From Hydrogenophaga sp. (GTDB taxonomy: Bacteria > Pseudomonadota > Gammaproteobacteria > Burkholderiales > Burkholderiaceae_C), in contig JAGKSX010000097.1 of assembly GCA_018993155.1 (NCBI GenBank), positions 1-55,371 on the forward strand: DNA of 55,371 nt, given 5' to 3'. The first letter of the stretch is position 1. Every line of letters begins with the position of its first letter. Below are positions 9,689 through 35,153 of the stretch, piece after piece. A program made the position numbers and the translations under genes. Below the pieces are notes generated by a model, which was given only the letters and a program-made list of their open reading frames with translations, had not been told where the DNA came from and ran no database searches.

Positions 9689-9689
<1 letters not shown>

Positions 9690-11296: not shown

Positions 11297-11308
11297 GTCG
11301 TCTCCTTC

Positions 11309-11324
11309 ATTCAGTACACTGAAT
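11309..11324. promoter_or_regulatory. Candidate MarR operator at the vanA-like gene
   Basis: ATTCAGT-AC-ACTGAAT is a perfect palindrome with 7-base arms. It ends 12 bases before the vanA-like ATG, next to its ribosome site. Binding here by the adjacent MarR protein would block transcription. The 67-base gap contains no other strong signal. Confidence 0.6.
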
Positions 11325-11363
11325 CAAATGGTAGCCCAAGCCGGGGCCGGTCGTCAACCGGGT

Positions 11364-17252: not shown

Positions 17253-18047
17253 TCAATGAACGGTCGGGTCAATGCCCAACGCCTCTCGCACGATGCGCTT
17301 GCAAGCGGCTTCCTCGTCACCACGGAAGTTGGGAACCGCAGTGAGGTGGTTGTTCGCACGCTGGCGGGTCTTGCCTTTGACAGCGCCTTCCGTCTCCAGA
17401 AGTGCGATCACCTTGCAATCGACCTTCTTGTTTTCGGCATACGACTGCAAGAGCAACGCTTCCATCACATGCGAATCGTCGATACCAAAAAAGACCGCCA
17501 CCGGTGGTCGGTTGGGAGCGAGGATCGCAAGCTCTGCGGAAACATCCGAGATCAGTGGACTGACGACGTAGTTCTCGATGATCTCAGCTCGATCGCCTGC
17601 GATCTGGCGAATCAGAACCGATGCGTCCTCTCGAAATGTGCTGAGCGTGCGTTCCTGCGTCGTCAGCAACAGATCCTGCACCCGCAACATGAAGGCGATA
17701 AAACGCATGGCGACGCGCCCGACTTCCTGCTGATCGATGTGGTCCGTCTTCAACTCCCCGGACTCCTGATCGAAAAGGACCGCGTATTGCTCTCGCAATT
17801 CAGAAAGCATCGCACTGCGCGACTTGTTGGTGAGGTCAACGCCAGATGCTTCCAGCGTGGCCATCGTGAGGCCGTCGTCCTGAACCACGTATCGACCAGC
17901 GATGTCAGGTCCAATCACGTAGAAGCCGATGTGATCTCCATTCATGCCCTCATGACCGGTGCCTACGGCATAACCGGCCGGTATCTCATGGACCGACAGC
18001 ATCCCGCAGAACGCCTGGCACAGTTCTTCTTTGATCATGCTTGCCAT
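17253..18047 (-). CDS. DUF1828-domain protein
   Basis: A 264-residue protein. The N-terminal ~95 residues match the DUF1828 pattern: LCQAFCGMLSVHEIPAGYAVGTG, then GDHIGFYVIGPD and GRYVVQDDGLTMATLEASG. A helical middle follows (about 100-170). The end (PPVAVFFGIDDSHVMEALLLQSYAENKKVDCKV) resembles the DUF1829 part often found with it. The biochemical role is unknown; such genes occur in accessory regions with phage, plasmid or defence genes. ATG 18047 has GGAGGG upstream. It overlaps the preceding gene by 13 bases, so the two form one unit. Base composition is visibly lower in GC than the neighbours. Confidence 0.75.
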   Translation of the reverse strand: MASMIKEELCQAFCGMLSVHEIPAGYAVGTGHEGMNGDHIGFYVIGPDIAGRYVVQDDGLTMATLEASGVDLTNKSRSAMLSELREQYAVLFDQESGELKTDHIDQQEVGRVAMRFIAFMLRVQDLLLTTQERTLSTFREDASVLIRQIAGDRAEIIENYVVSPLISDVSAELAILAPNRPPVAVFFGIDDSHVMEALLLQSYAENKKVDCKVIALLETEGAVKGKTRQRANNHLTAVPNFRGDEEAACKRIVREALGIDPTVH

Positions 18048-18628
18048 GGTTGACCCTCCAACTCGTAGGGCGGGGTTTTGGACAGCCGGAACACCCGGTC
18101 CGCACGCTTGTAAGCATCCTCGGCGCGTGTGATGCCCAGTGTCAACTCCCGATGAAACGAAGCCCAGTGAGGCAGACGCTTGTCATCGCAGGTCAACCGC
18201 CCGGAGGTTTTGTCCTTGTCATCACAGATGCAGTGCATGTGCCACCCCGGCTCGTCTGCGTGGAACTCATATCGGCAGAGAACCAGCATCTCAGACACGA
18301 CCTCCTTGCCCAGGTAGAACATCGCACGCTGCAAGTCCAGCCGATACGCCATCAGAAGGCGAAACGACTCGCCTTCGCACAGGAATCGAACGATACGCCA
18401 TGTGTACTTGCCCGGCACCTTGAACCCCGCTCCGCGCACGGGGAACGCGGTCCTGGGCATCTTTTCGCCTGTTTTCCACGATCCCACGTCTTTGATGGTT
18501 TTCTCGCCATTGATGACACGTCGCAGTTTCACGAGCCCCTCCATGATGGTCGGTTTCAGGGACGGCCAGCTATGAAACAAGGCAGTGCAACGCGCCGAAC
18601 GGCCTCCCCACTGATGGTGAGCCTGCAA
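18035..18628 (-). CDS. Unknown partner of the DUF1828 protein
   Basis: A protein of up to 197 residues with no family I recognise. It has a basic N-terminal half (LVKLRRVINGEKTIKD, WKTGEKMPRT) and a central FKVPGKYTWRIVRFLCEGESFRLLMAYR. A His/Cys/Asp-rich patch, EFHADEPGWHMHCICDDKDK, could bind metal or be catalytic. The outer start is TTG 18628, and ATG 18544 is possible (169 residues). Its 3' end overlaps the DUF1828 gene by 13 bases, so they are co-translated. Lower GC and lack of a known homologue point to horizontal transfer. Confidence 0.6.
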   Translation of the reverse strand: MQAHHQWGGRSARCTALFHSWPSLKPTIMEGLVKLRRVINGEKTIKDVGSWKTGEKMPRTAFPVRGAGFKVPGKYTWRIVRFLCEGESFRLLMAYRLDLQRAMFYLGKEVVSEMLVLCRYEFHADEPGWHMHCICDDKDKTSGRLTCDDKRLPHWASFHRELTLGITRAEDAYKRADRVFRLSKTPPYELEGQPWQA

Positions 18629-18654
18629 CGCCCACTTAAATGTAAACCGAAATC

Positions 18655-18660
18655 AGTATA
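18655..18660 (-). promoter_or_regulatory. Possible -10 element of the two-gene accessory unit
   Basis: The minus strand reads TATACT here, a near-consensus -10 box about 27 bases before the TTG start, in an A/T-rich patch (18,630-18,665) that contrasts with the surrounding GC. I see no convincing -35 box. Confidence 0.3.
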
Positions 18661-18669
18661 TCCACAGCG

Positions 18670-20316
18670 CTAAGCGCCGCGCACCCGATCAATCAAGGCC
18701 AGGGGATCGGCCGGCAGTTCATCCCCGCGCCAGGCCACATGCTGGTCCGGCCGGGACAGCACCCAGCGGTGGCGGTAGACGCCAGCGGCGTCGGCCGAAG
18801 CCAGGTCCACCACGCGCAGCGGCAGGCCGCGCTGCTTCGCGGCGTCGAGCAAAGGGCCCGCATTCGCCTGGGGGTCGGTGCTCAGCAGCGCAAACCCATC
18901 ACCCATCGCGTCGTAGAGTGAGCGCCCATCATCCAGCCACACATGCGGCGTGCGGCAGCCCGGCACGGTGGAGGGCGTGAACGTGTCCATGGTGTAGCCG
19001 GGCGGGCTTTCACCGTCGGGCGCGATCAAGGGTGAGGTGTCGTAGAAGTAGCCGAAGTTCAGGCCCGCGCAGCAGTACTGCTTCACGTTGAGGTCGTACA
19101 GGGTCTTGCCGGCGGCGGCGCGCAGAGCCACACCTGTCGGGCCTTCGGCTTCCAGGTCGGGTGGCACGCTCTCGCGCTCCTTCTGCAGCGCAATGGCATG
19201 GTTCATGGCGAAGCGCGACACCTGTTCGGTGATGGGCAGGCGCTCGGCTTCGTAGGCATCGAGGGCGCGCGGTCCGGCCCAGCCCTGCAGGTGGCCCGCG
19301 AGCAGCCACGAGAGGTTCATGGCGTCGGCGATGCCGGCGTTCATGCCGTAGCCGGCCATGGGCACCCAGAGGTGCGCGGCGTCGCCGCAGATAAAGATGC
19401 GCCGCTCGCGCAGCTTGTCGGCCACGAGGCGGCGGCCGATCCAGTCTTCCTTCGAGATCACGTCGTAGCGGAAGTCGGCGCCCACGCCGAGGATGGTGCG
19501 GATGCAGGCGTCGCGGTCCACCGACTCGAAGTCGGTCTCGCCGGGGCGCAGGTAGTTGTGCACCACGAAGGTCTCGATGCCGTCGATGGCGTACACGTTG
19601 CCGCTGCGGCGCGGGTTGTACGAGAAGGTGGCCCAGGCCGGTGGGTGCTTGGCGCGTTGCAGCAGGTCGGGCGCGCGCAGGAAGGTGGACTGCACGCGCT
19701 GCACCACTTCCACCCCGTGCAGCGCGGCCCCGATCTTCTTGCGCACGAGAGAACGACCGCCATCGCAGCCAATGAGGTAGTCGGCGCGCAGCATCACCGT
19801 GCCGCCGCTGGCGATGTCCACGGCCTGGGCGCTCACGCCCGTGTCGTCCTGCGCGAGGTCTTCAATGCGGGTGTGCGTGAGGATGCGCAGGCCGGGCGTG
19901 GCCAGCGCGTGGTCGAACAGCACCGGCTCCAGGTAGATCTGGTTGATGCGGTGCGGCGGCTCGGGCGTGGGCCAGCCGGTGTCGGGGCCTTGCGTGGCGG
20001 TGTAGCGGTCGCGCCGCGAGGGGATGGGGATGCGCGAGAGTTCGTCGCCGGTGAAGGTGGTGCGGTAGGCCACGTCGGCGGGGTGGTCGGCCGGCAGACC
20101 GGTGTCGCGCAAGGCCTTGGCCACGCCGAGGCGGCGAAAGATCTCCATGGAGCGCGCCGAGACGTGGTTGCACTTGGCCTCGGGCCGTTCGCCGCGCGGG
20201 CGCTGCTCGACCAGCAGCACGTCGATGCCACGTTGTGCGAGGTCGATGGCGAGCGTGAGGCCGACCGGGCCGCCGCCCACGATCAGGACCTGGGCCGAAT
20301 GGGTGGTGGTGCTCAT
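18670..20316 (-). CDS. FAD-dependent aromatic hydroxylase (group A flavoprotein monooxygenase)
   Basis: A 548-residue flavin monooxygenase. The FAD dinucleotide site GGGPVGLTLAIDLA is at about residues 13-26, the DG motif is in IGCDGGRSLVRKKIG, and the GD motif is in FICGDAAHLWVPMAGYGMNAGIADAMN. A C-terminal thioredoxin-like part follows, as in phenol or 3-hydroxybenzoate hydroxylases. It is the last gene of the arylmalonate/mandelate operon and probably hydroxylates the ring of the acid formed upstream, preparing cleavage. ATG 20316 overlaps the preceding stop as ATGA. The substrate is inferred from context only. Confidence 0.85.
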   Translation of the reverse strand: MSTTTHSAQVLIVGGGPVGLTLAIDLAQRGIDVLLVEQRPRGERPEAKCNHVSARSMEIFRRLGVAKALRDTGLPADHPADVAYRTTFTGDELSRIPIPSRRDRYTATQGPDTGWPTPEPPHRINQIYLEPVLFDHALATPGLRILTHTRIEDLAQDDTGVSAQAVDIASGGTVMLRADYLIGCDGGRSLVRKKIGAALHGVEVVQRVQSTFLRAPDLLQRAKHPPAWATFSYNPRRSGNVYAIDGIETFVVHNYLRPGETDFESVDRDACIRTILGVGADFRYDVISKEDWIGRRLVADKLRERRIFICGDAAHLWVPMAGYGMNAGIADAMNLSWLLAGHLQGWAGPRALDAYEAERLPITEQVSRFAMNHAIALQKERESVPPDLEAEGPTGVALRAAAGKTLYDLNVKQYCCAGLNFGYFYDTSPLIAPDGESPPGYTMDTFTPSTVPGCRTPHVWLDDGRSLYDAMGDGFALLSTDPQANAGPLLDAAKQRGLPLRVVDLASADAAGVYRHRWVLSRPDQHVAWRGDELPADPLALIDRVRGA

Positions 20317-21452
20317 GACAGGCGAAGGTGGGAAGGCCGAAGTTCGTCGATGCGGGTGCAGCCCAGCAGGGCCAGGCTGGTCTTGATCTCGCTCTGCAGG
20401 ATGCCGATCGCCTGCTCGACCCCGGCCTGCCCGCCGACGGTGGCGGCGTACAGCATGGGGCGGCCCACGAAGACCAGGCGCGCGCCGAGCGCGAGGGCCT
20501 TGAGCGCATCGGTGCCGCGCCGGATGCCGCCATCCAGGCACACCGGCAGCTCGCCCGCCGCGTCCAGCACCTCGGGCAGCACGTCCAGCGGCGCGGCCGC
20601 GCCATCGAGCTGGCGCCCGCCATGGTTGGAGACGATGAGGCCGTCCACGCCGGCTTCGCGCGCCAGCCGCGCGTCGTCGGCGCTGAGCACGCCCTTGATG
20701 AGCAGCGCCCCGCCCCACTGGCGGCGGATGAAGGCCACGTGGGCCCAGGTGAAGCGGTCGCGGTCCGAGCGGGCGGCGGCCGTGGGCGTGGCGATGATGG
20801 GCCGGCCCGTGGCCTCGCCGCCGAAGTTGGGCAGGCGCGGAATGCCGTCGGCCAGCAGGGTGCGCGCGAAGGTGCCGCACAGCCAGCGCGGGTGCAGCAC
20901 GCCGTCCACGGCGAGCGAGAGGCGCGGCTTGAGCGGGATGGTGAAGCCCAGGCGCCGGTCGCGGTCGCGGTTGGAGGCAATGGGCACGTCCACCGTAACG
21001 ACGAGCACGTCCACCTTGGCGCTGCGCAGCCGCGTCAGCAAGGCGGTGATGCGCGCCTCGTCACCGGGCACGTAGCCCTGGTACCAGCTGCCGGGCGCGG
21101 CTTCCATCACCTGCTCCAGCGGCACGCTGGAGGCGGCGCTGAGCACGAAGGGCACGCCGCCGGCGCGCGCGCCCAGCGCGAGCGCGAGGTCCGCGCGGTG
21201 CGCGAACAGCGCGCAGCCGCCCATGGGCGCGATGCCGAAGGGCGAGGCGTAAGTGGTGCCGAACAGCGTGGTGTCCTGCTTCACGGAGGCCACGTCCACC
21301 AGCGTGCGCGGCACGAAGGCCCAGCGCTCGAACGCGCGCGCGTTGGCCTGCACCGAAGCGCCGCGCTCCGAGCCGTTGGCCGCGAAGCCGTAGAGCGCGC
21401 GCGGCAGGCGCGATCGCGCGGCGGCCTCGAAGTCGTCGACGTTCAGGATCAC
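20313..21452 (-). CDS. FMN-dependent 2-hydroxyacid dehydrogenase (mandelate/lactate type)
   Basis: A 379-residue alpha-hydroxyacid-oxidising TIM barrel. The N-terminal part has PRALYGFAANGSE and FGIAPMGG. The catalytic His/Arg pair is in SNHGGRQLDGA, and the FMN phosphate site is in LDGGIRRGTDALKALALGA. It oxidises an (S)-2-hydroxyacid to the 2-keto acid; next to benzoylformate decarboxylase, mandelate or a ring-substituted form is the likely substrate (MdlB role). The start is GTG 21452, four bases after the preceding stop, and the end overlaps the hydroxylase start. Confidence 0.88.
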   Translation of the reverse strand: MILNVDDFEAAARSRLPRALYGFAANGSERGASVQANARAFERWAFVPRTLVDVASVKQDTTLFGTTYASPFGIAPMGGCALFAHRADLALALGARAGGVPFVLSAASSVPLEQVMEAAPGSWYQGYVPGDEARITALLTRLRSAKVDVLVVTVDVPIASNRDRDRRLGFTIPLKPRLSLAVDGVLHPRWLCGTFARTLLADGIPRLPNFGGEATGRPIIATPTAAARSDRDRFTWAHVAFIRRQWGGALLIKGVLSADDARLAREAGVDGLIVSNHGGRQLDGAAAPLDVLPEVLDAAGELPVCLDGGIRRGTDALKALALGARLVFVGRPMLYAATVGGQAGVEQAIGILQSEIKTSLALLGCTRIDELRPSHLRLS

Positions 21453-21456
21453 GGCG

Positions 21457-22581
21457 TCAGGCCCGCAGCGCCTGCACGGCGCCGGGGATCAGGGCGAAGC
21501 CCAGGCCCGGCGCTTCCGACATGGTGATGCGCCCACCCACGGGCTCGGGGAAGCCCTGGTAGAGGTGCTTCATCATGGCCACCACCGGCAGGTGCCACTC
21601 GACCTTGGTGCCGTTGCCCACGCCGGCCTGCAGGTGCATGTTGTGCAGCGGGTAGGCGCCGCCGCTGGTGATGGAGACGTTGAAGGCGTTGGCCAGCGCG
21701 GCGATGCGCACGCACTGCGTGAAGCCGCCGGTGATGACCACGTTGGGTTGCACGAAGTCCACGCTGCGCGCCATGAGCCAGTCGCGGAAGCGGTAGGCCA
21801 GGCCTTCGTTCTGGCCGCAGGTCAGCGGCATGCCGGTGCGCGCGCGCAGGTCGGCCATGGCGAGCACGTCGTTCTGCGTGATCGGCTCTTCGAAGAAGCC
21901 GAGGTTGCAGTCGGCGGTCAGGCGGATCAGGCGCTCGGCGTGGTACGCGTCCAGGCCGCAGTTGGCGTCCATGTAGAGCGAGACCTCGTCGCCCGCGGCC
22001 TCGCGCACCGCGCGCACGCGCCGGGCGTCTTCCTGGATCACGGACATCAGGCTGCGGCTCTCGCGGCGCGGCAGCGCGCGAAAGCCCACCACCATCTTCA
22101 GGTGCTCCACGCCTTCGGTGGACAGCGACTTGACCGCGCTTCGCAGGCCGTCGATGTCGAGGAACTCGAAACCGAAGGTGGCATAGATGTCGAGCTCCTT
22201 GCGCGCCGCGCCGAGCAACCGCCAGATCGGCTGCTTCAGCGCCTTGCCCTTGATGTCCCACAGCGCCACGTCGATGGCGGCGATGGCGTGCTGCGCATAG
22301 CCGGTCTGCCCGCGCGAGGCGGTGAGCCAGTACATCTGCTCCCAGCGCGCTTCGTGCGCCAGCGGGTCGGTGCCGATGAGGGCGGGCGCGAGCACGTGGG
22401 TGATGATGGACTCGGCCACCTTCTCCTGCGTGATCGCCGTCAGGCCGTGGCCGATCAGGCCTTCGTCGGTCTCTACTTCGACCACGCAGCAGCCAAGCGC
22501 TTCCTTGTGCTGGCCGCCGCCGGGCACGTCGAGCGTGAAGGGGATGTGGAGCGCGGTGGCGGTGATGCGGGTGATTTTCAT
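21457..22581 (-). CDS. Mandelate racemase/muconate lactonizing enzyme family protein, variant active site
   Basis: A 374-residue enolase-superfamily protein with the N-terminal capping domain and TIM barrel. Metal-ligand candidates are D in YMDANCGLD, E in FFEEPITQND and E/N in GQNEGL. The usual KxK pair reads K-M-V (HLKMVVG), and the usual Asp of the QPD strand is Asn (QPNVVITGG), while LHNMHL offers a His. So the canonical two-base racemase chemistry is not obvious. The operon position between arylmalonate decarboxylase and the hydroxyacid dehydrogenase suggests isomerisation or dehydration of an aryl hydroxyacid. ATG 22581 is chosen; upstream sequence belongs to the next gene. Confidence 0.82.
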   Translation of the reverse strand: MKITRITATALHIPFTLDVPGGGQHKEALGCCVVEVETDEGLIGHGLTAITQEKVAESIITHVLAPALIGTDPLAHEARWEQMYWLTASRGQTGYAQHAIAAIDVALWDIKGKALKQPIWRLLGAARKELDIYATFGFEFLDIDGLRSAVKSLSTEGVEHLKMVVGFRALPRRESRSLMSVIQEDARRVRAVREAAGDEVSLYMDANCGLDAYHAERLIRLTADCNLGFFEEPITQNDVLAMADLRARTGMPLTCGQNEGLAYRFRDWLMARSVDFVQPNVVITGGFTQCVRIAALANAFNVSITSGGAYPLHNMHLQAGVGNGTKVEWHLPVVAMMKHLYQGFPEPVGGRITMSEAPGLGFALIPGAVQALRA

Positions 22582-22597
22582 GGTCGAAGTGTGGAGT

Positions 22598-23320
22598 TCA
22601 GGCCAGGGTGAACAGGCGGCCGCCGGCGGTGCGACTGCGCGGGTCTTGGCCCGCCGCGCGCACCACGTCCCAGAAGCCGCTGGGCGAGCTGCCAATGGCG
22701 GGAAGGCCGAGCTGCTCTTCCAGCGTGGCGATGGCGTCGAGCGTGAGCAGGCCGCCGCAGGACATGAAGATGGCCTGCGCGCCAGGCGCCTGGGCATGCA
22801 CCTTCCGGCTCAGCGCAACCAGGCGTTCGGTGGAGACCTCGGCCGCACCACCGACCGGCTCGATGCCCAGGCCTTCGATGGCGGTGACTTCGAAGCCCAG
22901 GGCGCCGAGGTAAGCGACCAGGCGCGTATTGAGTTCGTCGATGTACGAGGTGGCCACCGCGACGCGCTGCACGCCCAGGGCCTGCAGGGCCGAGACGACG
23001 GCGTGGCTCATGGTGGTGCAGGGCACGCCCGTGGCCTGCTGCATGGCGTCGCGCAGCTGGTCGGTGAAGGCCGGGCCCTGGTAGAAGCTGAGCGAGGTGC
23101 CCATGAGCGAGATCGCCTGCGCGCCGTCCGCGTGCAGGGCGCGGGCGTGGTCCACGATCTGGTTCACCACCGGCGCGAAGCCGCGCGGCGACACGCCGTC
23201 GATGCCGAGGCCGCGCGCGATGAAGTCGAAGCGATCGCCGTACAGCAGGGGCGCATCGGGCGGCACGCGCCCATGGGCCGGCGGCACGATCAGGCCGATG
23301 CGGGGGCGCGGCGCGCTCAT
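22598..23320 (-). CDS. Arylmalonate decarboxylase (AMDase)
   Basis: A 240-residue Asp/Glu-racemase-fold protein. Its key residues fall at the same numbers as in the Bordetella bronchiseptica enzyme as I recall it: G74, T75 and S76 (MGTSLSFY), Y126 (TSYIDELN) and C188 (SCGGLLTLDAI). That length is also the enzyme's. The reaction is cofactor-free decarboxylation of alpha-aryl malonates to single-enantiomer arylacetates or arylpropionates. A maleate isomerase or racemase is less likely, because those have a second catalytic Cys where Gly74 stands. ATG 23320 overlaps the upstream Bug gene stop as ATGA. It sits mid-operon between a Bug receptor and the enolase-family gene. Confidence 0.92.
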   Translation of the reverse strand: MSAPRPRIGLIVPPAHGRVPPDAPLLYGDRFDFIARGLGIDGVSPRGFAPVVNQIVDHARALHADGAQAISLMGTSLSFYQGPAFTDQLRDAMQQATGVPCTTMSHAVVSALQALGVQRVAVATSYIDELNTRLVAYLGALGFEVTAIEGLGIEPVGGAAEVSTERLVALSRKVHAQAPGAQAIFMSCGGLLTLDAIATLEEQLGLPAIGSSPSGFWDVVRAAGQDPRSRTAGGRLFTLA

Positions 23321-24297
23321 TCGGCCGAGATGCCCTGGGCCTTGATGACCCGGCCCCACTCCGCGTACTCGCGCTTCACGTCGGCCGCCAGCGGGCCCGG
23401 CGCCATGTAGGCGGTGGTGACGCCTTGCGCGGCGGCGGCGCTGACCGCTTCGGGCGCGGCAAGCAGCTCGCCCACGGCCGCGCTCAGGCGGTCGATGATG
23501 GCCTGCGGCGTGCCGGCCGGTGCCAGCAGCATCTGGCGGGGGGCGACGTGAAAGCCCGGCACCACCTCGGCCAGGGTGCCGATGTCGTCCGCGCCGGCCA
23601 GGCGGGTCGAGCTGAACATGGCGACGGCCTTCACGCGCCCGCTGCGCACCTGCGGCACGCCGGCCGCGGCGCTCACCACACCGAACTGCAGCTGGCCGTT
23701 GATCACGTCGGTGACGAGCTGCGACGCACCCCGGTAGGGAATGTGCAGCAGGTGCGTCCTGGTGCGCGACTTGAACAGCTCCACGCCCAGGTGGTGCACC
23801 GTGCCGATGCCGGAGGTGCCGTAGGTGAAGCGGCCCGGATTGGCCTTGACCAGCGCAAGGAATTCGGCCGGGTTGCTGGCCTTCACGTCGTTGTTCGCCA
23901 CCAGCAGCAGGCGCGACTGGAACAGGCCCGCGACGGGCACGAGCGCCTTGATCGGGTCCAGCGAGGAGGTCTGGTTCTGCAGCTGCGGCGCGATCAGCAG
24001 CGCGCTTTCGCCGTGCAGCAGCGTGTAGCCATCGGCGGGTGACTTGGCCACGGTGTCGGCGGCCAGCAACCCGGCCGAGCCGGCGCGGTTTTCGACGATG
24101 ACGGACTGGCCCAGCGCGGTGGTGAGGCGTTGCGCGACGATGCGCGCCATGGTGTCCACCGCGCCGCCGGCGGCGTAGCCCACGAAGATGCGGATCGGCC
24201 GGTTGGGGTAGGGGCCGGCCTGGGCGAAGGCCAGGGGCGCGGCGCCCGCGGCGAGGGCTGCGCCCACGAAGCTTCGTCGGCGGAGGTTGGGGTTCAT
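23317..24297 (-). CDS. Bug-family (TTT) periplasmic substrate-binding protein
   Basis: A 326-residue exported receptor. A Tat-like leader (RRRSFVGAALAAGAAPLAFAQ) is followed by the Bug hallmarks PNRPIRIFVGYAAGGAVDTMAR, LGQSVIVENRAGSAG and ADGYTLL. These proteins bind carboxylates or amides and feed TctA/TctB carriers, none of which lie in the window. Its position directly before and overlapping the AMDase gene suggests an arylmalonate-type ligand. AGGAGACAAG precedes ATG 24297. Confidence 0.92.
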   Translation of the reverse strand: MNPNLRRRSFVGAALAAGAAPLAFAQAGPYPNRPIRIFVGYAAGGAVDTMARIVAQRLTTALGQSVIVENRAGSAGLLAADTVAKSPADGYTLLHGESALLIAPQLQNQTSSLDPIKALVPVAGLFQSRLLLVANNDVKASNPAEFLALVKANPGRFTYGTSGIGTVHHLGVELFKSRTRTHLLHIPYRGASQLVTDVINGQLQFGVVSAAAGVPQVRSGRVKAVAMFSSTRLAGADDIGTLAEVVPGFHVAPRQMLLAPAGTPQAIIDRLSAAVGELLAAPEAVSAAAAQGVTTAYMAPGPLAADVKREYAEWGRVIKAQGISAE

Positions 24298-24322
24298 CGT
24301 CTTGTCTCCTGGTTGTGGTTGT

Positions 24323-25912
24323 TCAGGCGACCCGCACTTCCACGAGCGAGGGGCCTCTCGAGGCGAGGGACGCTTTCAAGGCCGCGTGCAACTGGCCGGC
24401 GTCCTCCACGCGCTCGCCGGGCACACCATGCCCTTGCGCCAGCGCCACGAAGTCGATGCCGGGCAGGTCGGTGCCCGGCAGCACGGCGCCGGCCGGGAAA
24501 CCGAGCACGCCGCCGAAGCGCTTCATCGCGCCGTAGCGGCGGTTGTTGACCACGACGAAGCTGATGTTCAGGCCGAGCTGCGCGGCGGTCCACAGCGTCT
24601 GGATCGAGTACATGCTGGAGCCGTCGCCGATGATGGCGATCACGCGGCGCTCGCGCCAGGCCAGCGCGATGCCGGCGGCCGCCGGCATGCTGTGGCCCAG
24701 GCCACCGCTGGCCATGGTGAAGAAGCTGCTCGGCTTCAGGATGGGCAGGTGCTGGTGCATCACCACGCGGGCGGTGGGGGCCTCTTCCACGATCACGTCG
24801 TCGGGCGAGCGCAGTTCGGCGATGGTCTGCAGGAGGTAGGCCACCTGGATCGGCGCGCCCGGCTCGGCGCGCGCTTCGCGCACCCAGGCCGGCGGCGCGG
24901 TGCGCGGGCGCTGCGGCTGCGCGCCTTGCAGCGCCTGCAGCGCCAGGGCCACGTCGCCCACCACCGAGGTGCCCACCGGCGTGCGCGCGGCGGCGTCGGG
25001 GTCCTCGGTGAGCTGCCACAGCGTGGCGCCGTCGGGCAGGTGCGGGCCGTCGCCTTCCACGTGGTAGGTGAACACCGGCGCGCCGATCACCAGGATCAGG
25101 TCGTGGCCGGCGAGCTTCTGCACGATCTGCGCCTTCACCGCGGGCAGGAAGCCGTGGAACAGCGCATGGTCTTCGGGGAAGCCCGCGCGCGCCGACATGG
25201 GCGCGTTGAACACCTTGGCACCGTGGCGCTCGGCCAGGGCGACGATGCCGTCCCAGGCGCCGGAACGGTCCACTTCCGCGCCGGCCACGAACACCGGCCG
25301 CTCGCAGGCCGAAAGCGCGTGCGCCAGCGCGGCGATGGCCTGCGGCTCGGGCGCCGTGCGCCGGCTCATGGCGCGGTGCGCGACCGGCTCGGCGGGCTGG
25401 TCCCAGTCGTCCGAGGGCACGGAGACCAGCACCGGGCCGCAGGGCGCCTGCAACGCGCGGCGGCAGGCGGTGGCGATGGCCTGGGGCACGTCCTGCGCGC
25501 GCGCGGGCTCGATGCTCCATTTCACGTACGGCTGCGGCAGCTCGGTGGCGCGCTCGGAGGCCAGGTAGGCGTCCAGCGGCTGGATGGAGCGCGACTGCTG
25601 GCCCGCGATGACCACCAGCGGCGTGCGGTTCTTGAACGCCGTGTAGAGGTTGCCCATGCCGTGCCCCACGCCAGCGGCCGAGTGCAGGTTGACGAGACCG
25701 ACCTTGCCGGTGGCCTGGGCGTACCCATCGGCCATGCCCACGCACACGGCTTCCTGCAGGCCCAGCACGTACTGGATGTCGCTGGGGAAGTCGCGGAACA
25801 TGGGCAGCTCGGTGGAGCCCGGGTTGCCGAAGATGGTGTCCACGCCGAACTGGCGCAGCACGTCGTACACGCCGTCGCGCACGGTGAAAGGGGTCGGGGA
25901 AACGGGGCTCAT
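24323..25912 (-). CDS. mdlC: Benzoylformate decarboxylase
   Basis: A 529-residue thiamine-diphosphate enzyme. Active-site residues of the Pseudomonas enzyme recur with an offset of seven: S33 (GNPGSTELPM), E54 (LQEAVCVGMADGYAQ), H77 (NLHSAAGVGHGMG) and a His in VFTYHVEGDG. The ThDP/Mg motif is GDGSSMYSIQ...NN. It splits an arylglyoxylate into aryl aldehyde and CO2. The start ATG 25912 overlaps the aldehyde dehydrogenase stop as ATGA. The next gene, a Bug receptor, begins 25 bases downstream. The frame continues open upstream to 27,307, but that part is an antisense shadow of the next gene. Confidence 0.95.
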   Translation of the reverse strand: MSPVSPTPFTVRDGVYDVLRQFGVDTIFGNPGSTELPMFRDFPSDIQYVLGLQEAVCVGMADGYAQATGKVGLVNLHSAAGVGHGMGNLYTAFKNRTPLVVIAGQQSRSIQPLDAYLASERATELPQPYVKWSIEPARAQDVPQAIATACRRALQAPCGPVLVSVPSDDWDQPAEPVAHRAMSRRTAPEPQAIAALAHALSACERPVFVAGAEVDRSGAWDGIVALAERHGAKVFNAPMSARAGFPEDHALFHGFLPAVKAQIVQKLAGHDLILVIGAPVFTYHVEGDGPHLPDGATLWQLTEDPDAAARTPVGTSVVGDVALALQALQGAQPQRPRTAPPAWVREARAEPGAPIQVAYLLQTIAELRSPDDVIVEEAPTARVVMHQHLPILKPSSFFTMASGGLGHSMPAAAGIALAWRERRVIAIIGDGSSMYSIQTLWTAAQLGLNISFVVVNNRRYGAMKRFGGVLGFPAGAVLPGTDLPGIDFVALAQGHGVPGERVEDAGQLHAALKASLASRGPSLVEVRVA

Positions 25913-27354
25913 GCGGAATAGCTGCGGTTGACGAACTTGGTGTGGAGGTAGCTGTCGAGGCCCTCTTCGCCGCTCTCGTAGCCGTAGCCGCTGTCGCGCA
26001 CGCCGCCGAACGGCGCTTCGGCCACGGTGACGACGGTGCTGTTGATGGCCACGCTGCCCACCTCCAGCTCGGCGATCATCTGGCGCTGCAGGCGCGCGGA
26101 GTCGGTGAACACGTAGGAGCCCAGGCCGTAGCGCGTGGCGTTGGCCAGTTCGATGGCCTGCGCGGGCGTGTCGAAGGCGCGGATCAGCGCGACCGGGCCG
26201 AAGGGCTCCTCGCGCATGGCTTTCGCATCGGGGTTCACGTCGGCGAACACGGTGGGCTGGTGGAAGTAGCCCTGCTCGCCCACGCGCTCGCCGCCGGCCA
26301 CCAGCGTGCCTTCGGACCGGGTCTGGGCCACGAGTTCGCGGATCGCGCCCAGGCGCCGGCCGTTGGCCAGCGGCCCCATGTCGGTGCCTTCGGCCAGGCC
26401 GTCGCCCACGCGCAGCTGCGAGGCAGTGGCCGCGAAGGTGTCGACGAAGCGTGCGTAGGCGCCCTTTTGCACGAAGAAGCGCGTGGGCGCGTGGCAGAGC
26501 TGGCCGGCGTTGCGGAACTTGGCCGCGACCAGCTGGCGCGCCACGGCGTCCACGTCGGCGTCGTCGAACACGATCACCGGCGAGTGGCCGCCGAGCTCCA
26601 GCGTGAGGCGCTTGAGGCCGGGCGCGGCCAGGCGAGCCAGGCCCTGCCCCACCGCCACCGAACCGGTGAAGGACACCTTGCGGATCACGTCCGACGCGAT
26701 CAGGTGCGAAGACACGAAAGACGGCACGCCGAAGACGAGGTTGATGACGCCATCGGGCGCGCCGGCTTCGATGAAGCACTCGACCATCTTCGCGACCGAG
26801 GCCGGGGTTTCCTCCGGCGGCTTGAGGATGCAGGAACAGCCCGCCGCGAGCGCGCCGCCGAGCTTGCGCGCGGCGAGGATCACGGGCACGTTCCAGGGCG
26901 ACATCAGCAGGCAGGGGCCCACCGGCTCCTTGCGCACCTCGTAGTCGGCGCCAGGCTGCGGCGCCGGCAGGATGCGGCCGTAGACGCGCTTGGCCTGCTC
27001 GGCGTACCACTGCACCATGTCGGCCGCCACATCGACTTCCATGCGCGCCTGGGCCAGGGGCTTGCCCTGCTCCAGCGTGAGCAGGCGCGCGATGGCCTCG
27101 CGCTGCGCGCGCAGGTTCTGTACCCCTTGGCTCAGCACCCGCTGGCGGGTCGCTGCGGGCGTGGCGCGCCAGACGCGGAAGCCCTGCTCGGCGGCAGCCA
27201 GCGCGTCGTCGAGGTCGCGCACCGAGGCGTGCGTCAGCTCGTCGAGCACCGCCTCGGTGGCCGGGTTGATCACGCGGCTGCGCGTGTCCGCGCTGCCGGC
27301 GCGCCATTGCCCACCAATGAAGAGGCTCGGCGCGCGGTAGACCGTCTCGCTCAT
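25909..27354 (-). CDS. NAD(P)-dependent aldehyde dehydrogenase (benzaldehyde-type)
   Basis: A 481-residue ALDH. The active-site Glu is in TLELGGHSP and the catalytic Cys in NAGQLCHAPTR; EEPFGPV and GYGYESGEEGLDSYL are typical of the succinate-semialdehyde/benzaldehyde branch. In this operon it should oxidise the aldehyde released by benzoylformate decarboxylase to the aryl acid (MdlD role). The start ATG 27354 is two bases from the Bug gene stop, and the stop overlaps mdlC. It is cytoplasmic and of standard length. Confidence 0.92.
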   Translation of the reverse strand: MSETVYRAPSLFIGGQWRAGSADTRSRVINPATEAVLDELTHASVRDLDDALAAAEQGFRVWRATPAATRQRVLSQGVQNLRAQREAIARLLTLEQGKPLAQARMEVDVAADMVQWYAEQAKRVYGRILPAPQPGADYEVRKEPVGPCLLMSPWNVPVILAARKLGGALAAGCSCILKPPEETPASVAKMVECFIEAGAPDGVINLVFGVPSFVSSHLIASDVIRKVSFTGSVAVGQGLARLAAPGLKRLTLELGGHSPVIVFDDADVDAVARQLVAAKFRNAGQLCHAPTRFFVQKGAYARFVDTFAATASQLRVGDGLAEGTDMGPLANGRRLGAIRELVAQTRSEGTLVAGGERVGEQGYFHQPTVFADVNPDAKAMREEPFGPVALIRAFDTPAQAIELANATRYGLGSYVFTDSARLQRQMIAELEVGSVAINSTVVTVAEAPFGGVRDSGYGYESGEEGLDSYLHTKFVNRSYSA

Positions 27355-27356
27355 GC

Positions 27357-28319
27357 TCACTGGTCCGCCTTGATGTTGTTCTTGCGGGCGACCTCGGTCC
27401 ACGCGGGGATCTCCTGCGCGATCTGGCGGGTGAAAGCCTCCGAGGTGCTGGAGGCCGGCGTCAGGCCCAGCTGGGCCATGCTCTTGAGCGTCTCCGGGTG
27501 CTGCACCGCCTTGGCCACTTCGCGCTCCAGCAGCTTCACGATGGGCGCGGGCGTGCCGGCGGGCGCGAACAGGCCGATCCAGAACTGGATGCTCAGGTCG
27601 ATGCCCTGCTCCTTGAGCGTGGGGATGTCGGGGAAGGACGGGTTGCGCACGTCGGACGAGACGGCCAGGCCCCGCACCAGCTTGCCGTGGATGGCGCCGG
27701 CCGCCGGGCCGGGGTCGAGCATGCTGAAGGTGGTCTCGCCACCGGCCACGGACTTCATCGAGTCGCCGCTGCCTTTGTAGGGCACGTGTTGCGACTGGAT
27801 GCCGGTGCGCTCCTTCAGCAGCTCGGTGGCGAGCTGGAAGGTGGAGGCGCTGGAGGCGTAGTTGGAGAGCTGCGGGTTCTCCTTGGTGAACTTCACCAGG
27901 TCGGGCATGTTCTTGAAGGGCGAGTCCGCCTTGACCGAGACGATCAGCGGGAAGGTCGCGATCGTGGAGATCGGGATGAAGTCCTTCTGCGGCGAGTACG
28001 GCAGGTTGGAATAGGTGGCGGCGTTGATCACCAGCGGGCCGCTGGCGCCGATCATCAGCGTGTAGCCGTCGGGTGCGGCCTGCTTGGTCACCACCGCGCC
28101 CACGATGGCGCCGGTGCTCGGGCGGTTCTCCACCACCACCGGCTGGCCCAGGCTGTCGCCCAGCCGCTTGGCGACGATGCGCGCCAGGATGTCGTTGGAC
28201 CCGCCGGGCGAATAGCCGACGACGAACTTGATGGGCTTGGACGGGTAGTTGTCCTGGGCGTGGGCGGCAAGGGCAACGGCGCAAAGCGCGATGCCCGCCA
28301 CGAGGCGTCGGCGGATCAT
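27357..28319 (-). CDS. Bug-family (TTT) periplasmic substrate-binding protein
   Basis: A 320-residue exported receptor and first gene of the leftward operon. The signal peptide MIRRRLVAGIALCAVALAAH ends before QDNYPSKPI. Bug motifs are FVVGYSPGGSNDILARI, LGQPVVVENRPSTG and APDGYTLMIGAS. It probably captures the operon's aryl (di)carboxylate, the second such receptor in the same operon. An AGGAGACAAG ribosome site precedes ATG 28319. Transcription should start in the 107-base gap shared with the divergent LysR gene. Confidence 0.92.
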   Translation of the reverse strand: MIRRRLVAGIALCAVALAAHAQDNYPSKPIKFVVGYSPGGSNDILARIVAKRLGDSLGQPVVVENRPSTGAIVGAVVTKQAAPDGYTLMIGASGPLVINAATYSNLPYSPQKDFIPISTIATFPLIVSVKADSPFKNMPDLVKFTKENPQLSNYASSASTFQLATELLKERTGIQSQHVPYKGSGDSMKSVAGGETTFSMLDPGPAAGAIHGKLVRGLAVSSDVRNPSFPDIPTLKEQGIDLSIQFWIGLFAPAGTPAPIVKLLEREVAKAVQHPETLKSMAQLGLTPASSTSEAFTRQIAQEIPAWTEVARKNNIKADQ

Positions 28320-28377
28320 GGTCTTGTCTCCTGTTCTTGAAGGCTTCGAGTATTGACCCGATGCCATGCCACGTAAA

Positions 28378-28426: not shown

Positions 28427-29368
28427 ATGGACTGGACGAATCGACTGCGCCTGCGGCACCTGCAGATCCTGGTCAGCCTGGCCGAGACGCAGAACATCAG
28501 CCACTCCGCCGAGCGGCTGCACATGACGCAGCCCGCGCTCTCGAAGTGGCTCAAGGAGCTGGAAGCCGACATCGGCCTCACGCTGTTCGAACGCCACGCG
28601 CGCGGGCTGCGCCCCACCGCCCACGGCCAGATCCTGCGCGAGTTCGCGGTGCACATTGGCAACGAGCTCGACCGCGCGCGGGAAGAGATGGCCGCGCTGC
28701 GCAGCGGCGGCAGCGGCCGCGCCGTGATCGGCGCCTCGGGCGCCACCATCGCGGGCGTGGTGCCGCAGGCGGTGCTCTCGCTGCTGGCCACCATGCCCAA
28801 CGCGAGCGTGGAACTGGTCGAGGCGCCAATGGACCGGCTGTTCCAGCAGCTCACCCAGCGCGAGATCGACATCGCGGTGGGCCGCCCCGCGGCCAAGTAC
28901 CACGACCCCGGCATCGCCTCGGAGGTGCTGTACGAAGAGCGGCTGCACTTCGCGGTGCGCCCGGACCACCCGCTGGCCCGGCGAAAATCCCTGCAGTGGT
29001 CACACCTGCTGGCGCAGCGCTGGGTGGTCTGGACGCGCGACATCCCCGCGCGCGACCTGCTCGAATCGGCGCTATCGGCCGCCGGCCGCGCGATCCCGGG
29101 CGCGAGCGTGCAGTCCAACTCCCTGCTCGCCACCATCGCGCTGGTGGCCGAAAGCGACATGGTGGCCGTGGTCTCCGAGCGCGCCATCGAACTGCCCGAG
29201 CGCTGGAAGATGCTCAAGCGCCTGCCGCTGAAGCTGGAGACGGCCAGCGCCATGACCATGTACTGGCGCAAGGACGCGAGCGGCTTCGCAGCGGTGGACG
29301 GCCTGCTCGATGCGCTGCGCCAGGTGGCGCGGCAGCCGGCGCGCACCGTGCGCCCTCGCAAGGCCTAA
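28427..29368 (+). CDS. LysR-family regulator of the arylmalonate/mandelate operon
   Basis: A 313-residue LysR protein. The helix-turn-helix is in NISHSAERLHMTQPALSKWLKELE, close to the N-terminus, followed by a co-inducer domain that opens RAVIGASGATIAGVVPQAVLSLL. It is transcribed away from the operon across 107 bases that carry a perfect palindrome, the usual LysR layout, so it probably activates the operon with an aryl acid as inducer. Its end overlaps the next convergent LysR gene by four bases. Confidence 0.9.
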   Translation: MDWTNRLRLRHLQILVSLAETQNISHSAERLHMTQPALSKWLKELEADIGLTLFERHARGLRPTAHGQILREFAVHIGNELDRAREEMAALRSGGSGRAVIGASGATIAGVVPQAVLSLLATMPNASVELVEAPMDRLFQQLTQREIDIAVGRPAAKYHDPGIASEVLYEERLHFAVRPDHPLARRKSLQWSHLLAQRWVVWTRDIPARDLLESALSAAGRAIPGASVQSNSLLATIALVAESDMVAVVSERAIELPERWKMLKRLPLKLETASAMTMYWRKDASGFAAVDGLLDALRQVARQPARTVRPRKA

Positions 29369-30261
29369 CCGGGCAGGCGCGAGGCCGCCTTCTTCACGGC
29401 AGACGCGAAGGCCGTGGCCGCCAGCTTGGGCTGGGTGCCGCGCAGCGACACCACGTGCAGCTCGATGTGCACCGTGGGGTTGCCGAGCATGGACACCTTG
29501 AGGCCCTGGCGCAGGCAGTCCTCCAGCGCGAAGGACGGCACGATGGCGTGGCCCCGGCCGGCGCGCACCATCGCGATCAGGGTGCCGATCAGGTTCATGC
29601 GCGGGCGCTCCTCGTGCGCGCGCCCGATGCGCGCGAGGTGTTTTTCGATCACGGCCTGGATCGGGTTGTCGACCGGCAGGCTGATGAGTGGCAACTCGGC
29701 CAGGCTGCTCCAGGTCTGGCTGGGCCCCAGGCCGCCCGCACCCTTGCCCGGCGGGCTGATGCGCATCAGCCGGAACTTGCACAGCGGCTGGCGCTGCAGG
29801 CCCACGGCGGGTTTGATGAAGAAGCCCAGGCCAATGTCGGCCTCCCCTTCCAGGATGCGCTGGCGCACCACGCTCACGTCCACGTCGGCCAGGTGGATCT
29901 GCACCTGGGGGTGGCTCTGGTTGAAGGCGCTGATGACCTCCGGCAACAGGCTGGCCGAGACCATGGGCGTGGCCGCCACGTCGATGCGCGAGCGCACGGC
30001 CGCCTCGGTGCCACCGATCACGTCGTCGATGGCCCGCAGCTCGGCCACGATGCGCTCGGCCACCGGCTGCAGGCGGCGCCCGGCGTCGGTGAGCGTGACA
30101 GAGCGCGTGGTGCGGTCGAACAGGCGCGCACCCACCTGGTCTTCGAGTTCCTTGACCAGCATGCTCATGCCCGAGGGCGACAGGTGCACCTGCTCGGCCG
30201 CCTTGGCAAAGCTGCGCAGGCGCGCGACCTCCAGAAAGGCCTGGAGTTGCCGACTGCCCAC
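29365..30261 (-). CDS. LysR-family regulator of the second aromatic cluster
   Basis: About 298 residues from GTG 30261. The helix-turn-helix is AFLEVARLRSFAKAAEQVHLSPSGMSMLVKELED, followed by an effector domain with SLPVDNPIQ and HAIVPSF. The frame is open to TTG 30315, but the added 18 residues are not LysR-like. An inverted repeat (30302-30343) would then lie inside the gene's start, so I prefer the shorter form. It is divergent from a Bug receptor and flavin hydroxylase, which it probably controls. Confidence 0.82.
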   Translation of the reverse strand: MGSRQLQAFLEVARLRSFAKAAEQVHLSPSGMSMLVKELEDQVGARLFDRTTRSVTLTDAGRRLQPVAERIVAELRAIDDVIGGTEAAVRSRIDVAATPMVSASLLPEVISAFNQSHPQVQIHLADVDVSVVRQRILEGEADIGLGFFIKPAVGLQRQPLCKFRLMRISPPGKGAGGLGPSQTWSSLAELPLISLPVDNPIQAVIEKHLARIGRAHEERPRMNLIGTLIAMVRAGRGHAIVPSFALEDCLRQGLKVSMLGNPTVHIELHVVSLRGTQPKLAATAFASAVKKAASRLPG

Positions 30262-30301
30262 ATTGATCAATTTTCTTGAAGAGTTGTTCAAAATCTTCCG
30301 T

Positions 30302-30343
30302 TTGATGAATGTCAAAGGTGTTGCTGTAATTGTCCTTCATCAA
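30302..30343. promoter_or_regulatory. Inverted repeat in the LysR-Bug divergent promoter
   Basis: TTGATGAA (30302-30309) and TTCATCAA (30336-30343) are perfect 8-base complements 26 bases apart. They lie between the LysR gene and the Bug gene, directly before the latter's ribosome site (GGAGA). The spacing could suit a LysR tetramer. Confidence 0.5.
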
Positions 30344-30356
30344 TGGAGACAGCACC

Positions 30357-31352
30357 ATGAACACCCCATCCGCCTTTCTTCCCCCCTCCCCGCTGCGCCG
30401 AAGCCTCGTGCTGGGTGGCCTGGCCACGGTGGCCGCGCCTTTCGTGATGGCCCAGGACGCCGCCAGCCGGCCGGTCCGGCTCGTGGTGCCGTTCACCCCG
30501 GGCACTGGCATCGACCTGATCGCGCGCCAGATCGCGCCGCAACTGGCCGAGCGCCTGAAGCGGCCCTTCTTCGTCGAGAACAAGGCCGGCGCCTCCGGCA
30601 ACATCGGCACCCAGGAGGTCGTGCGCGCCGCGCCGGACGGCAGCACGCTGCTGGTGAGCGTCAACACGCTGGTGATGAACGCCGCGCTGTACCCGAACGC
30701 GGGCTTCAACCCGGTCAAGGACCTCGCGGCCGTCTCGCTCACGAGCTGGGGCCAGCTGCTGCTGGTGACCCACCCCAACACCAGGATCGATTCGCTCAAG
30801 GGCCTGCTGGAGCGCGCCCGCGCCCGGCCCGGTGCGCTCAACTACGGCTCGCCCGGTGCCGGCACGCCGCATCACCTGGCGATGGAGCTGCTGAAGAACC
30901 GCGCCAAGATTTCCATCACGCACATCGGCTACCGGGGCACGGCGCCGGCCGTGACCGATCTGCTGGGCGGGCAGATCGAACTGATGTTCCTGCCGATCCA
31001 CGTGGCGCTGCAGCACATCAAGGCAGGCAAGCTCAAGGCGCTGGCCATCAGCTCGAGCCAGGCGAACCCGCTGCTGCCCGACGTGCCACCCCTCAGCAGC
31101 CTGAACATCGGCAACCTGAATGTGGACATGTGGTACGGCGTGCTGGCGCCCGCGGCCACGCCGCGCGCGCTGATCGACCAGCTGAACAAGGAGCTGCGCG
31201 ACATCCTGGCGCAGCCCGCGATCGCGACCGCGTTCGAGACCCAGGGCATGACACCCGCCCATTCCACCCCGGAAGCGTTCCAGCAGCTGATGGCCACCGA
31301 CGCCCAGCGCTGGGCCAGCCTGATCAAGGCCCAGGGCATCACCGCCGAGTAA
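30357..31352 (+). CDS. Bug-family (TTT) periplasmic substrate-binding protein
   Basis: A 331-residue exported receptor. The leader runs RRSLVLGGLATVAAPFVMAQ. Motifs are PVRLVVPFTPGTGIDLIAR, KRPFFVENKAGASGNIGTQ and APDGSTLLV. It is the first gene of a rightward pair with a flavin hydroxylase 16 bases downstream, so it probably binds that enzyme's aromatic acid. GGAGA precedes ATG 30357. No carrier genes are nearby. Confidence 0.92.
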   Translation: MNTPSAFLPPSPLRRSLVLGGLATVAAPFVMAQDAASRPVRLVVPFTPGTGIDLIARQIAPQLAERLKRPFFVENKAGASGNIGTQEVVRAAPDGSTLLVSVNTLVMNAALYPNAGFNPVKDLAAVSLTSWGQLLLVTHPNTRIDSLKGLLERARARPGALNYGSPGAGTPHHLAMELLKNRAKISITHIGYRGTAPAVTDLLGGQIELMFLPIHVALQHIKAGKLKALAISSSQANPLLPDVPPLSSLNIGNLNVDMWYGVLAPAATPRALIDQLNKELRDILAQPAIATAFETQGMTPAHSTPEAFQQLMATDAQRWASLIKAQGITAE

Positions 31353-31368
31353 GAGAGAAGAGCGACAC

Positions 31369-32991: not shown

Positions 32992-32992
32992 A

Positions 32993-34621: not shown

Positions 34622-35127
34622 GCGCGGGTTTCCTCAGAGGGGGTCATGTCGAAGCGGTCGCCGAAGTCGAAGTAGTCGTCGTGCACGAAGCCATTCTCGT
34701 AGTACTGGATCTCCCACCAGTTGTGGTCGAGGTCTTCGAAGTAGAACGAGTACACGCCGTGCATGTCCTGGATGGGGAGCACCTGGCGGATGCCGTAGGT
34801 GTCCTTGAACCGCAGCGCCAGCGCGTGCGCGTGGTCCACCTCGTCGCGCGAGGCGACATCCAGTCCCCAGTGGTTGAGCACGTTGCAGGGGTGGATCTGG
34901 TCGCCCACCTCCACGCACACCACATGGAAGCGCATGCCCAGGCGGATCGACATCGCGGGCTTGGCGTGGCGCGCGCATTCGAGCCCCAGGAACTCTTCAT
35001 AGAAGCGGCGCGAGGCCGTGAGGTTGAAGCACTCCAGCGTGCCATGGCTCAGGCACAAAGGCTTGAGCACGGAGTGGCGCGCGGGCGGTTCGACGCGGCA
35101 GTTGTCGGGGACGAATCCAGCGATCAT
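34618..35127 (-). CDS. VOC-family (glyoxalase/extradiol dioxygenase-like) protein
   Basis: A 169-residue single vicinal-oxygen-chelate protein. Possible metal ligands are the His in SHGTLECF, the His in DMHGVYSFYFEDLDHNWWEIQYY and the Glu near its end. VOC proteins of this size next to aromatic oxygenases are often ring-cleavage or lactoylglutathione-lyase-like enzymes. It lies between the CocE gene (ATGA overlap) and the reductase (26 bases upstream). Its actual reaction is not readable from sequence. Confidence 0.8.
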   Translation of the reverse strand: MIAGFVPDNCRVEPPARHSVLKPLCLSHGTLECFNLTASRRFYEEFLGLECARHAKPAMSIRLGMRFHVVCVEVGDQIHPCNVLNHWGLDVASRDEVDHAHALALRFKDTYGIRQVLPIQDMHGVYSFYFEDLDHNWWEIQYYENGFVHDDYFDFGDRFDMTPSEETRA

Positions 35128-35153
35128 GGCGATGGGTCTCTCTCGGTTGAAGG

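Follow-up and report, generated by a model that had tools for sequence, protein, structure and literature searches.

Within the 55,371-nucleotide stretch of contig JAGKSX010000097.1 analysed here (Hydrogenophaga sp., assembly GCA_018993155.1; hereafter the window), eight genes follow one another in the same direction on the minus strand (28319-18670), and the fifth of them encodes arylmalonate decarboxylase (AMDase). In order of transcription, these are genes for a TctC-family receptor (Bug1), an aldehyde dehydrogenase (ALDH), a benzoylformate decarboxylase (BFDC), a second receptor (Bug2), AMDase, an enolase-superfamily protein resembling mandelate racemase (MR-like), a flavin mononucleotide (FMN)-dependent 2-hydroxyacid dehydrogenase, and a flavin adenine dinucleotide (FAD)-dependent hydroxylase (Table 1). 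All of the genes that the original prediction had placed in one operon are thus present and point the same way. Its "many" ATGA junctions do exist, but at only three of the seven junctions (ALDH/BFDC, Bug2/AMDase and FMN/FAD); the remaining gaps are 2 nt (Bug1/ALDH), 25 nt (BFDC/Bug2), 16 nt (AMDase/MR-like) and 4 nt (MR-like/FMN).

Table 1. Genes of the AMDase operon and the divergent regulator gene
Feature	Coordinates	Strand	Family evidence
Bug1, TctC-family periplasmic receptor, 320 aa, first gene of operon	27357..28319	-	PF03401 1.1e-62
Aldehyde dehydrogenase (ALDH), 481 aa	25909..27354	-	PF00171 5e-152
Benzoylformate decarboxylase (BFDC), thiamine diphosphate (ThDP) enzyme, 529 aa	24323..25912	-	NF005485 771.8 bits, cut-off 493
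Bug2, TctC-family receptor, 326 aa	23317..24297	-	PF03401 4.7e-52
Arylmalonate decarboxylase (AMDase), 240 aa	22598..23320	-	NF052327 304 bits; PF17645 5e-90
Enolase-superfamily (MR/MLE-like) protein, 374 aa, non-canonical active site	21457..22581	-	PF13378/PF02746
FMN-dependent 2-hydroxyacid dehydrogenase, 379 aa, GTG start	20313..21452	-	PF01070 5.5e-120
FAD aromatic-ring hydroxylase, 548 aa, last gene	18670..20316	-	PF01494 1.5e-71, PF21274 (longer frame); NF004780
LysR regulator, PcaQ-like, divergent from operon	28427..29368	+	PF00126/PF03466; TIGR02424 160 bits, cut-off 304

Membership of the AMDase family (EC 4.1.1.76) was judged by the 12 criteria set out in passages of PMC4996985. The window protein exceeded the cut-off of the curated family model (304 bits versus 225), and residues G74, T75, S76, Y126 and C188, named in the original prediction, together with G189, match the positions of the B. 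bronchiseptica enzyme. In the alignment, P14, P15, V43, V156 and the motif LMGTSLSF are also identical to the solved AMDase, while I40, F48, A159 and IFMSCGGL, which stand for L40, Y48, M159 and ILLSCGGL, are similar or hydrophobic rather than identical. By score and residues the protein is a true AMDase with a predicted activity, and it is the only one in its assembly. Among the AMDase genes from other genomes, one contained an in-frame TGA (G739 C31, locus L204), and Nitratireductor pacificus (the genome of locus L119; G476 C7 and C12, or L208 and L207) has two AMDases over the cut-off, as published.

The Pseudomonas putida mandelate pathway consists of the racemase MdlA, the FMN-dependent (S)-mandelate dehydrogenase MdlB, the BFDC MdlC and the benzaldehyde dehydrogenase MdlD. 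The window operon resembles it in having a BFDC, an FMN 2-hydroxyacid dehydrogenase, an ALDH and an enolase-superfamily protein, and differs from it by the added AMDase, the two Bug receptors and the terminal flavin hydroxylase, by an MR-like protein that lacks the racemase bases, and by an ALDH of semialdehyde type. The ThDP enzyme is a BFDC as judged from its curated score and its catalytic residues: S33, E54, H77 and H284 align with S26, E47, H70 and H281 of 1bfd, and roles for Ser26, His70 and His281 are described in passages of PMC6028569. For the ALDH, in which the Cys287/Glu253 motifs were located by eye, the best NCBIfam model was that for succinic semialdehyde dehydrogenase, although the score fell below its cut-off, and the nearest solved chain was an alpha-ketoglutaric semialdehyde dehydrogenase.

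The FMN enzyme keeps all eight of the catalytic residues compared (Y, Q, Y, D, R, K, H and R), and its best solved chain is the (S)-mandelate dehydrogenase 6bfg. It was over the cut-off of no NCBIfam model, and in a tree it falls in a clade apart from the FMN enzymes of BFDC clusters. FMN enzymes of the 2-hydroxyacid dehydrogenase family usually take (S) acids. The FAD hydroxylase scored 692 bits with NF004780 (cut-off 445), with RebC as its best solved chain. Although the operon holds two TctC receptors, it has no TctA or TctB; five TctA matches lie elsewhere in the assembly. An identical leader, CAGGAGACAAGAC, stands 1 base ahead of the ATG of each receptor gene, at 28321-28333 and 24299-24311.

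The claim of the original prediction that AMDase lies within a mandelate-type set was borne out. Judged by its residues, the enolase-family protein is not a mandelate racemase, and the ALDH is semialdehyde-like. In an alignment with mandelate racemase, the MR-like protein retains K164 and the ligands D195 and E221, while K166 is replaced by V, E247 by Q, D270 by N and H297 by G. Among 53 aligned sequences (the window protein and 52 relatives from AMDase loci), none kept K166, E247, D270 or H297, and because both bases are absent from all 53, identity as a mandelate racemase was rejected. The proteins nearest to the MR-like protein are sugar-acid dehydratases, cycloisomerases and enzymes of unassigned function. 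Its AlphaFold model (pLDDT 84.7) has the enolase-superfamily fold; since residues 281-284 and 314-319 are below 50, we did not deduce catalysis from the model. As a group, the window protein and its 52 relatives retain a single lysine of the KxK pair, have Q where the third metal ligand would be, and lack a His-Asp dyad; H313, H316, H330, R172 and E259 are conserved.

The original prediction had an aryl- or hydroxyaryl-malonate decarboxylated to a mandelate-type acid. This does not hold as written, since decarboxylation of a plain arylmalonate yields an arylacetate; the substrate would have to be an alpha-hydroxy-arylmalonate, which wild-type AMDase accepts (passages of PMC4517146). Feeding of the mandelate steps by a plain arylmalonate was accordingly rejected on chemistry. 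The AMDase product fits the FMN enzyme only if the malonate carries an alpha-hydroxy group. Passages of PMC4517146 report that wild-type B. bronchiseptica AMDase yields alpha-hydroxy acids from alpha-hydroxy-alpha-phenylmalonate and its heteroaryl analogues by decarboxylation, the configuration of the product being compared to that of (R)-mandelic acid. The reading that we favour, at a little under an even chance, is a catabolic operon in which a mandelate-type pathway starts with AMDase. A Bug receptor would capture an alpha-hydroxy-alpha-arylmalonate (aryltartronate), from which AMDase would remove CO2 to give an (R)-2-hydroxy-2-arylacetate of the mandelate type. The MR-like protein might adjust the stereochemistry or catalyse an adjacent step, the FMN enzyme would convert the hydroxy acid to an arylglyoxylate, and BFDC and ALDH would take this through the arylaldehyde to the aryl acid. 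The flavin enzyme would hydroxylate the ring, either before or after these steps. In this scheme, the substrate, the order of steps, uptake, and the roles of the MR-like protein and the hydroxylase are what we infer.

We scanned one genome per species for relatives of the AMDase, and of the 84 found, the best 80 loci were kept (loci are cited by L numbers). Linkage was counted by tblastn, because our own gene caller, which had been trained on the operon, predicted few genes in some loci that differ in composition and none in L188. The neighbourhood of AMDase genes in relatives, which the original prediction had set in advance as its test, was not random. Within 5 kb of AMDase we observed a TctC receptor in 67 loci, an MR-like gene in 60 and an FMN 2-hydroxyacid dehydrogenase in 16, with some of the receptor and MR-like misses lying at contig ends. 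A relative of Bug2 (at least 45% identity) was directly upstream of AMDase in 45 of the 80, and the commonest core was receptor, MR-like and AMDase. The MR/MLE and transporter linkage was already published in 2016, with passages of PMC4996985 giving an MR/MLE gene near AMDase in 61% of the available sequences and an orphan TctC in betaproteobacteria. Like the window, the clusters TTT-I to TTT-V described there (Maimanakos et al. 2016) combine AMDase, MR/MLE and orphan TctC; the window differs from them by its FMN dehydrogenase, BFDC/ThDP enzyme and ALDH. None of these three is named as an AMDase neighbour in the passages of the PMC4996985 body text covered here, and the word "benzoylformate" is absent from its text. 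A linkage of FMN dehydrogenase to AMDase was not found in print within the openly licensed literature.

The 16 FMN-linked loci (L052, L053, L056, L059, L073, L077, L079, L086, L088, L090, L094, L096, L103, L105, L108 and L126) compare with an expectation of ~0.6% per locus. Further linkage was seen at 9.3 kb in L119 and in L146, a locus of the window's genus outside the 80. When the AMDases were collapsed at 80% identity, 5 of 34 clusters had FMN linkage, whereas 0.19 clusters would be expected at 0.5 genes per Mb and 0.6 at 1.6 per Mb (binomial P of 1e-6 to 3e-4). The gene density was obtained from a manual count of 56 long FMN_dh matches (>300 bits) in 30 genomes (~111 Mb), the upper value being that of the densest of the 30. 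As controls, we used 17 loci (296 kb), 7 centred on superfamily members that fall below the AMDase cut-off and 10 on hydroxylase orthologues. No FMN dehydrogenase or MR-like match was present in any of the 17; a ThDP-enzyme match was present in three (L049, L050 and L190), and a nearby ThDP gene alone is therefore weaker evidence. AMDase thus co-occurs with the mandelate-type set more often than by chance, and its linkage to FMN and MR-like genes is the firm part of this result. One of the FMN-linked loci, L052 of Ramlibacter terrae, has its Bug and FMN genes each split by a change of frame (9257-11666), probably through assembly error. The flavin hydroxylase as a regular partner of AMDase was rejected: in the 80 loci, filtering at E 1e-15 plus coverage left a sole match, 34% identical and 10 kb away (L071).

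In a tree of 48 FMN enzymes, the 21 that are AMDase-linked require 8 label changes, 6 of which are forced by well-supported branches, and they belong to at least three, probably four, separate subfamilies. The window enzyme clusters with those of L052 and L053 (support 97/88), those of L056 and L059 are nested among the BFDC-cluster enzymes (100/97), and a third group comprises L119 and L126. The enzymes from Variovorax, Pseudacidovorax and L146 resemble lactate dehydrogenases (LldD-like) and are close to a group that includes an AMDase-unlinked gene of the window's own genome. Since several subfamilies are involved, FMN enzymes were apparently recruited to AMDase loci more than once.

A second full set was found in a marine alphaproteobacterium. 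Of 240 plasmid records with an AMDase match, two, from Ponticoccus alexandrii and Aminobacter, were examined. On the Ponticoccus alexandrii plasmid p-SCP4 (NZ_CP047170; L195, 4101-13922), genes for an FMN-dependent alpha-hydroxyacid oxidase, MR/MLE, TctCBA, AMDase (272 bits, over the cut-off), ALDH and a ThDP-requiring enzyme stand side by side, with identities to the window proteins of 38% (FMN), 49% (MR), 40% (AMDase), 32% (ALDH) and 25% (ThDP). With 146 bits against the BFDC model (cut-off 493), the ThDP enzyme is a member of a different subfamily (PRK08327), so that the same five enzyme classes are assembled here with a non-orthologous ThDP gene; the ALDH, too, is probably not orthologous. 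L195 and L205, the latter a near-identical full set in a second genome, share with the window the FMN oxidase, MR/MLE, TctC, AMDase, ALDH and ThDP enzyme, and differ from it in gene order, in a complete TctCBA and a MarR regulator, and in having no flavin hydroxylase in the cluster. A survey of the family of genome G473 (394 genomes) gave 12 AMDase places in 11 genomes (10 of these genomes had one over the cut-off), and all 12 places were examined. Besides the full set, MR, FMN oxidase and Tct occurred in L209 (the same place as L126), MR and Tct in L202 and L203, MR and TRAP in L199, and ILVD and HIBDH (3-hydroxyisobutyrate-dehydrogenase family) without MR in L196, L197, L198, L200, L201 and L204; L206 had none of these.

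BFDC itself has no general tie to AMDase. In the genus (67 genomes, including that of the window), five other genomes had a BFDC relative of 57-59% identity, and three, including that of the window, had an AMDase over the cut-off. In the family sample (399 genomes, again including the window's), a BFDC relative at E 1e-100 occurred in 53 and an AMDase over the cut-off in 13; three of the 13 held both, linked in the window and far apart in G246 and G254. We fetched 17 BFDC regions from the family and genus matches, and among these an AMDase was present in none, an FMN dehydrogenase in 6 and an ALDH in 11 within ~3 kb; with linkage in one of the three double-holding genomes, a general BFDC-AMDase linkage was rejected. 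In six 20-kb regions (L147, L149 and L151, of the same genus, and L152, L162 and L163), BFDC (58-60% identical to that of the window), ALDH and FMN dehydrogenase occur together as they do here, but there is no AMDase in the region and the FMN enzyme belongs to a different clade. The window thus combines a mandelate-type module with an AMDase core.

It is conceivable that one promoter serves two modules, the AMDase core (Bug2, AMDase and MR-like) and a mandelate/benzoylformate module, and that neither uses the products of the other as substrates. The six AMDase-free groups, the 53 family genomes with BFDC and the distance between the two genes in G246 and G254 are what one would expect in that case. 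We nevertheless regard it as improbable, because genes of the two modules alternate (ALDH-BFDC-Bug2-AMDase-MR-FMN) and overlap at three junctions, because Ponticoccus has the same enzyme classes side by side, and because FMN enzymes adjoin AMDase without BFDC in several lineages.

The hydroxylase orthologues bear on the order of the steps. Of the 10 regions fetched around them, two (L184 and L186, with orthologues of 73 and 71% identity) are homoprotocatechuate clusters of the HpaR/HpaG/HpaE type; in L184, HpaE scored 810 bits versus 638 and HpaG-N was slightly below its cut-off. Those of L187 and L189 (70 and 67%) adjoin Rieske dioxygenase genes, and the remaining regions had genes for Bug, LysR or ABC transporters or no recognisable pathway, L188 having given no gene calls. 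These contexts hint at a hydroxyphenyl substrate and do not fix the step. Ring hydroxylation as the last step, as originally proposed, is unsupported, with two of the closest orthologues being in homoprotocatechuate clusters.

These two clusters also favour the strongest rival, in which AMDase acts last. The FMN enzyme would oxidise a 3-aryl-malate-type acid, giving an aryl-oxaloacetate, which the ThDP enzyme would convert to an arylmalonate semialdehyde and ALDH to an arylmalonate; AMDase would then release an arylacetate for flavin hydroxylation toward a homoprotocatechuate-type ring. The ALDH, being nearest to alpha-ketoglutaric and succinic semialdehyde dehydrogenases, suits this order, as does plain phenylmalonate, the preferred AMDase substrate in passages of PMC4517146. 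Moreover, in nine alphaproteobacterial loci a HIBDH-family gene is beside or within ~3 kb of AMDase, which suits a step from tropate to arylmalonate semialdehyde; no paper on a bacterial tropate degradation pathway was among the literature matches listed. The window ThDP enzyme, on the other hand, is by cut-off and residues a BFDC, from an arylglyoxylate family, and the commonest core of receptor, MR-like and AMDase has no enzymes for building a malonate. On balance, we consider this order unlikely.

In those nine loci (L123, L124, L128, L129, L196, L197, L198, L201 and L204), AMDase occurs with an ILVD/EDD dehydratase and a HIBDH-family dehydrogenase, mostly with TRAP, and without an MR-like match; the dehydratase is possibly a non-homologous replacement of the MR-like protein. 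This substitution, the closeness of the MR-like protein to sugar-acid dehydratases, cycloisomerases and unassigned enzymes, and the acceptance of alkenyl malonates by AMDase (passages of PMC4517146) would be consistent with a non-aromatic natural substrate, an alkenyl or sugar-acid-derived malonate, with the MR-like protein as a dehydratase and the aromatic genes a local addition. This seems to us very improbable given that BFDC and an aromatic hydroxylase are within the same gene run and that genes for enzymes of aryl acids or 2-oxoacids occur near other AMDases. An acyl-CoA ligase gene adjoins AMDase in L070 and L089 and is one gene away in L099; IorA-like genes occur in L059, L065, L102 (cut by the contig end) and L130, with IorB in L059, L065 and L130. 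On the Aminobacter plasmid, a gene of the 4-hydroxyphenylacetate 3-hydroxylase family is ~3 kb from AMDase, which is surrounded by ABC transporter genes with an aldo/keto reductase nearby.

Several observations weigh against a mandelate-type route that begins with AMDase. The main weak point is stereochemical: AMDase yields the (R) acid, while the family of the FMN enzyme usually takes (S), and both bases of mandelate racemase are missing from the protein that might close this gap. Because the MR-like gene stands between the AMDase and FMN genes but its product lacks the known bases, there are three possibilities: a new kind of racemase, an FMN enzyme that accepts (R), or an error in the proposed route. 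We know of no natural source of aryltartronates. The ALDH is closest to semialdehyde dehydrogenases, not the benzaldehyde type. The reference mandelate dehydrogenase 6bfg groups with no AMDase-linked FMN enzyme in the tree, and the linkage of the LldD-like enzymes may partly reflect a landing site rather than function. In 64 of the 80 AMDase loci, some of which end at contig ends, there is no FMN enzyme within 5 kb, and near other AMDases the BFDC query gave only weak ThDP-superfamily matches, in L060 (24%, 1.1 kb away on the opposite strand) and L111 (31%, 8 kb away). Finally, according to passages of PMC4517146, plain phenylmalonate is a better AMDase substrate than the hydroxy form.

The divergent LysR gene is the probable regulator of the operon; a scan for promoters and terminators gave no signal exceeding that of shuffled sequence. 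GC content is ~0.70-0.73 across most of the operon and 0.65 in 18000-19999, a stretch that includes the end of the last gene. The contig also has an alanine tRNA and, judged by eye, rpsA-, cmk- and aroA-like genes, and the DNA carrying the operon therefore appears to come from a proteobacterial chromosome. A second catabolic cluster adjoins the operon at 29365-39322, with genes for LysR, a Bug-like receptor and a glyoxalase-like protein (both by eye), a CocE/NonD hydrolase and, with scores below cut-offs, an FAH/HpaG-like protein and a reductase of BenC/MmoC type; within it, at 31369-32991, is another PRK06126-like flavin hydroxylase below the model cut-off. A Rieske oxygenase at 10259-11296 is vanillate O-demethylase-like by eye and matched no NCBIfam model at 1e-30.

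Chemists make wide use of AMDase as a biocatalyst for profens, yet its natural substrate was still termed unknown in April 2026 (passages of PMC13096762), and its strict (R)-preference has been termed puzzling (passages of PMC4996985). The linkage to a 2-hydroxyacid enzyme and the second full set narrow the substrate question to a short, testable list, and the locus singles out an enolase-superfamily group that has no assigned function and an unusual active site. A broader proposal, which we put forward tentatively and hold to be doubtful as a whole, is that aryltartronates would be the natural substrates of AMDase and hitherto unnoticed nutrients in the environment, with AMDase the entry of an aryltartronate branch of mandelate degradation that was assembled independently in beta- and alphaproteobacteria. 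The (R)-selectivity of AMDase would then be due to the stereospecific 2-hydroxyacid enzyme that follows it, and the MR-like protein, with a new arrangement of bases, would act on the product or the substrate of AMDase.

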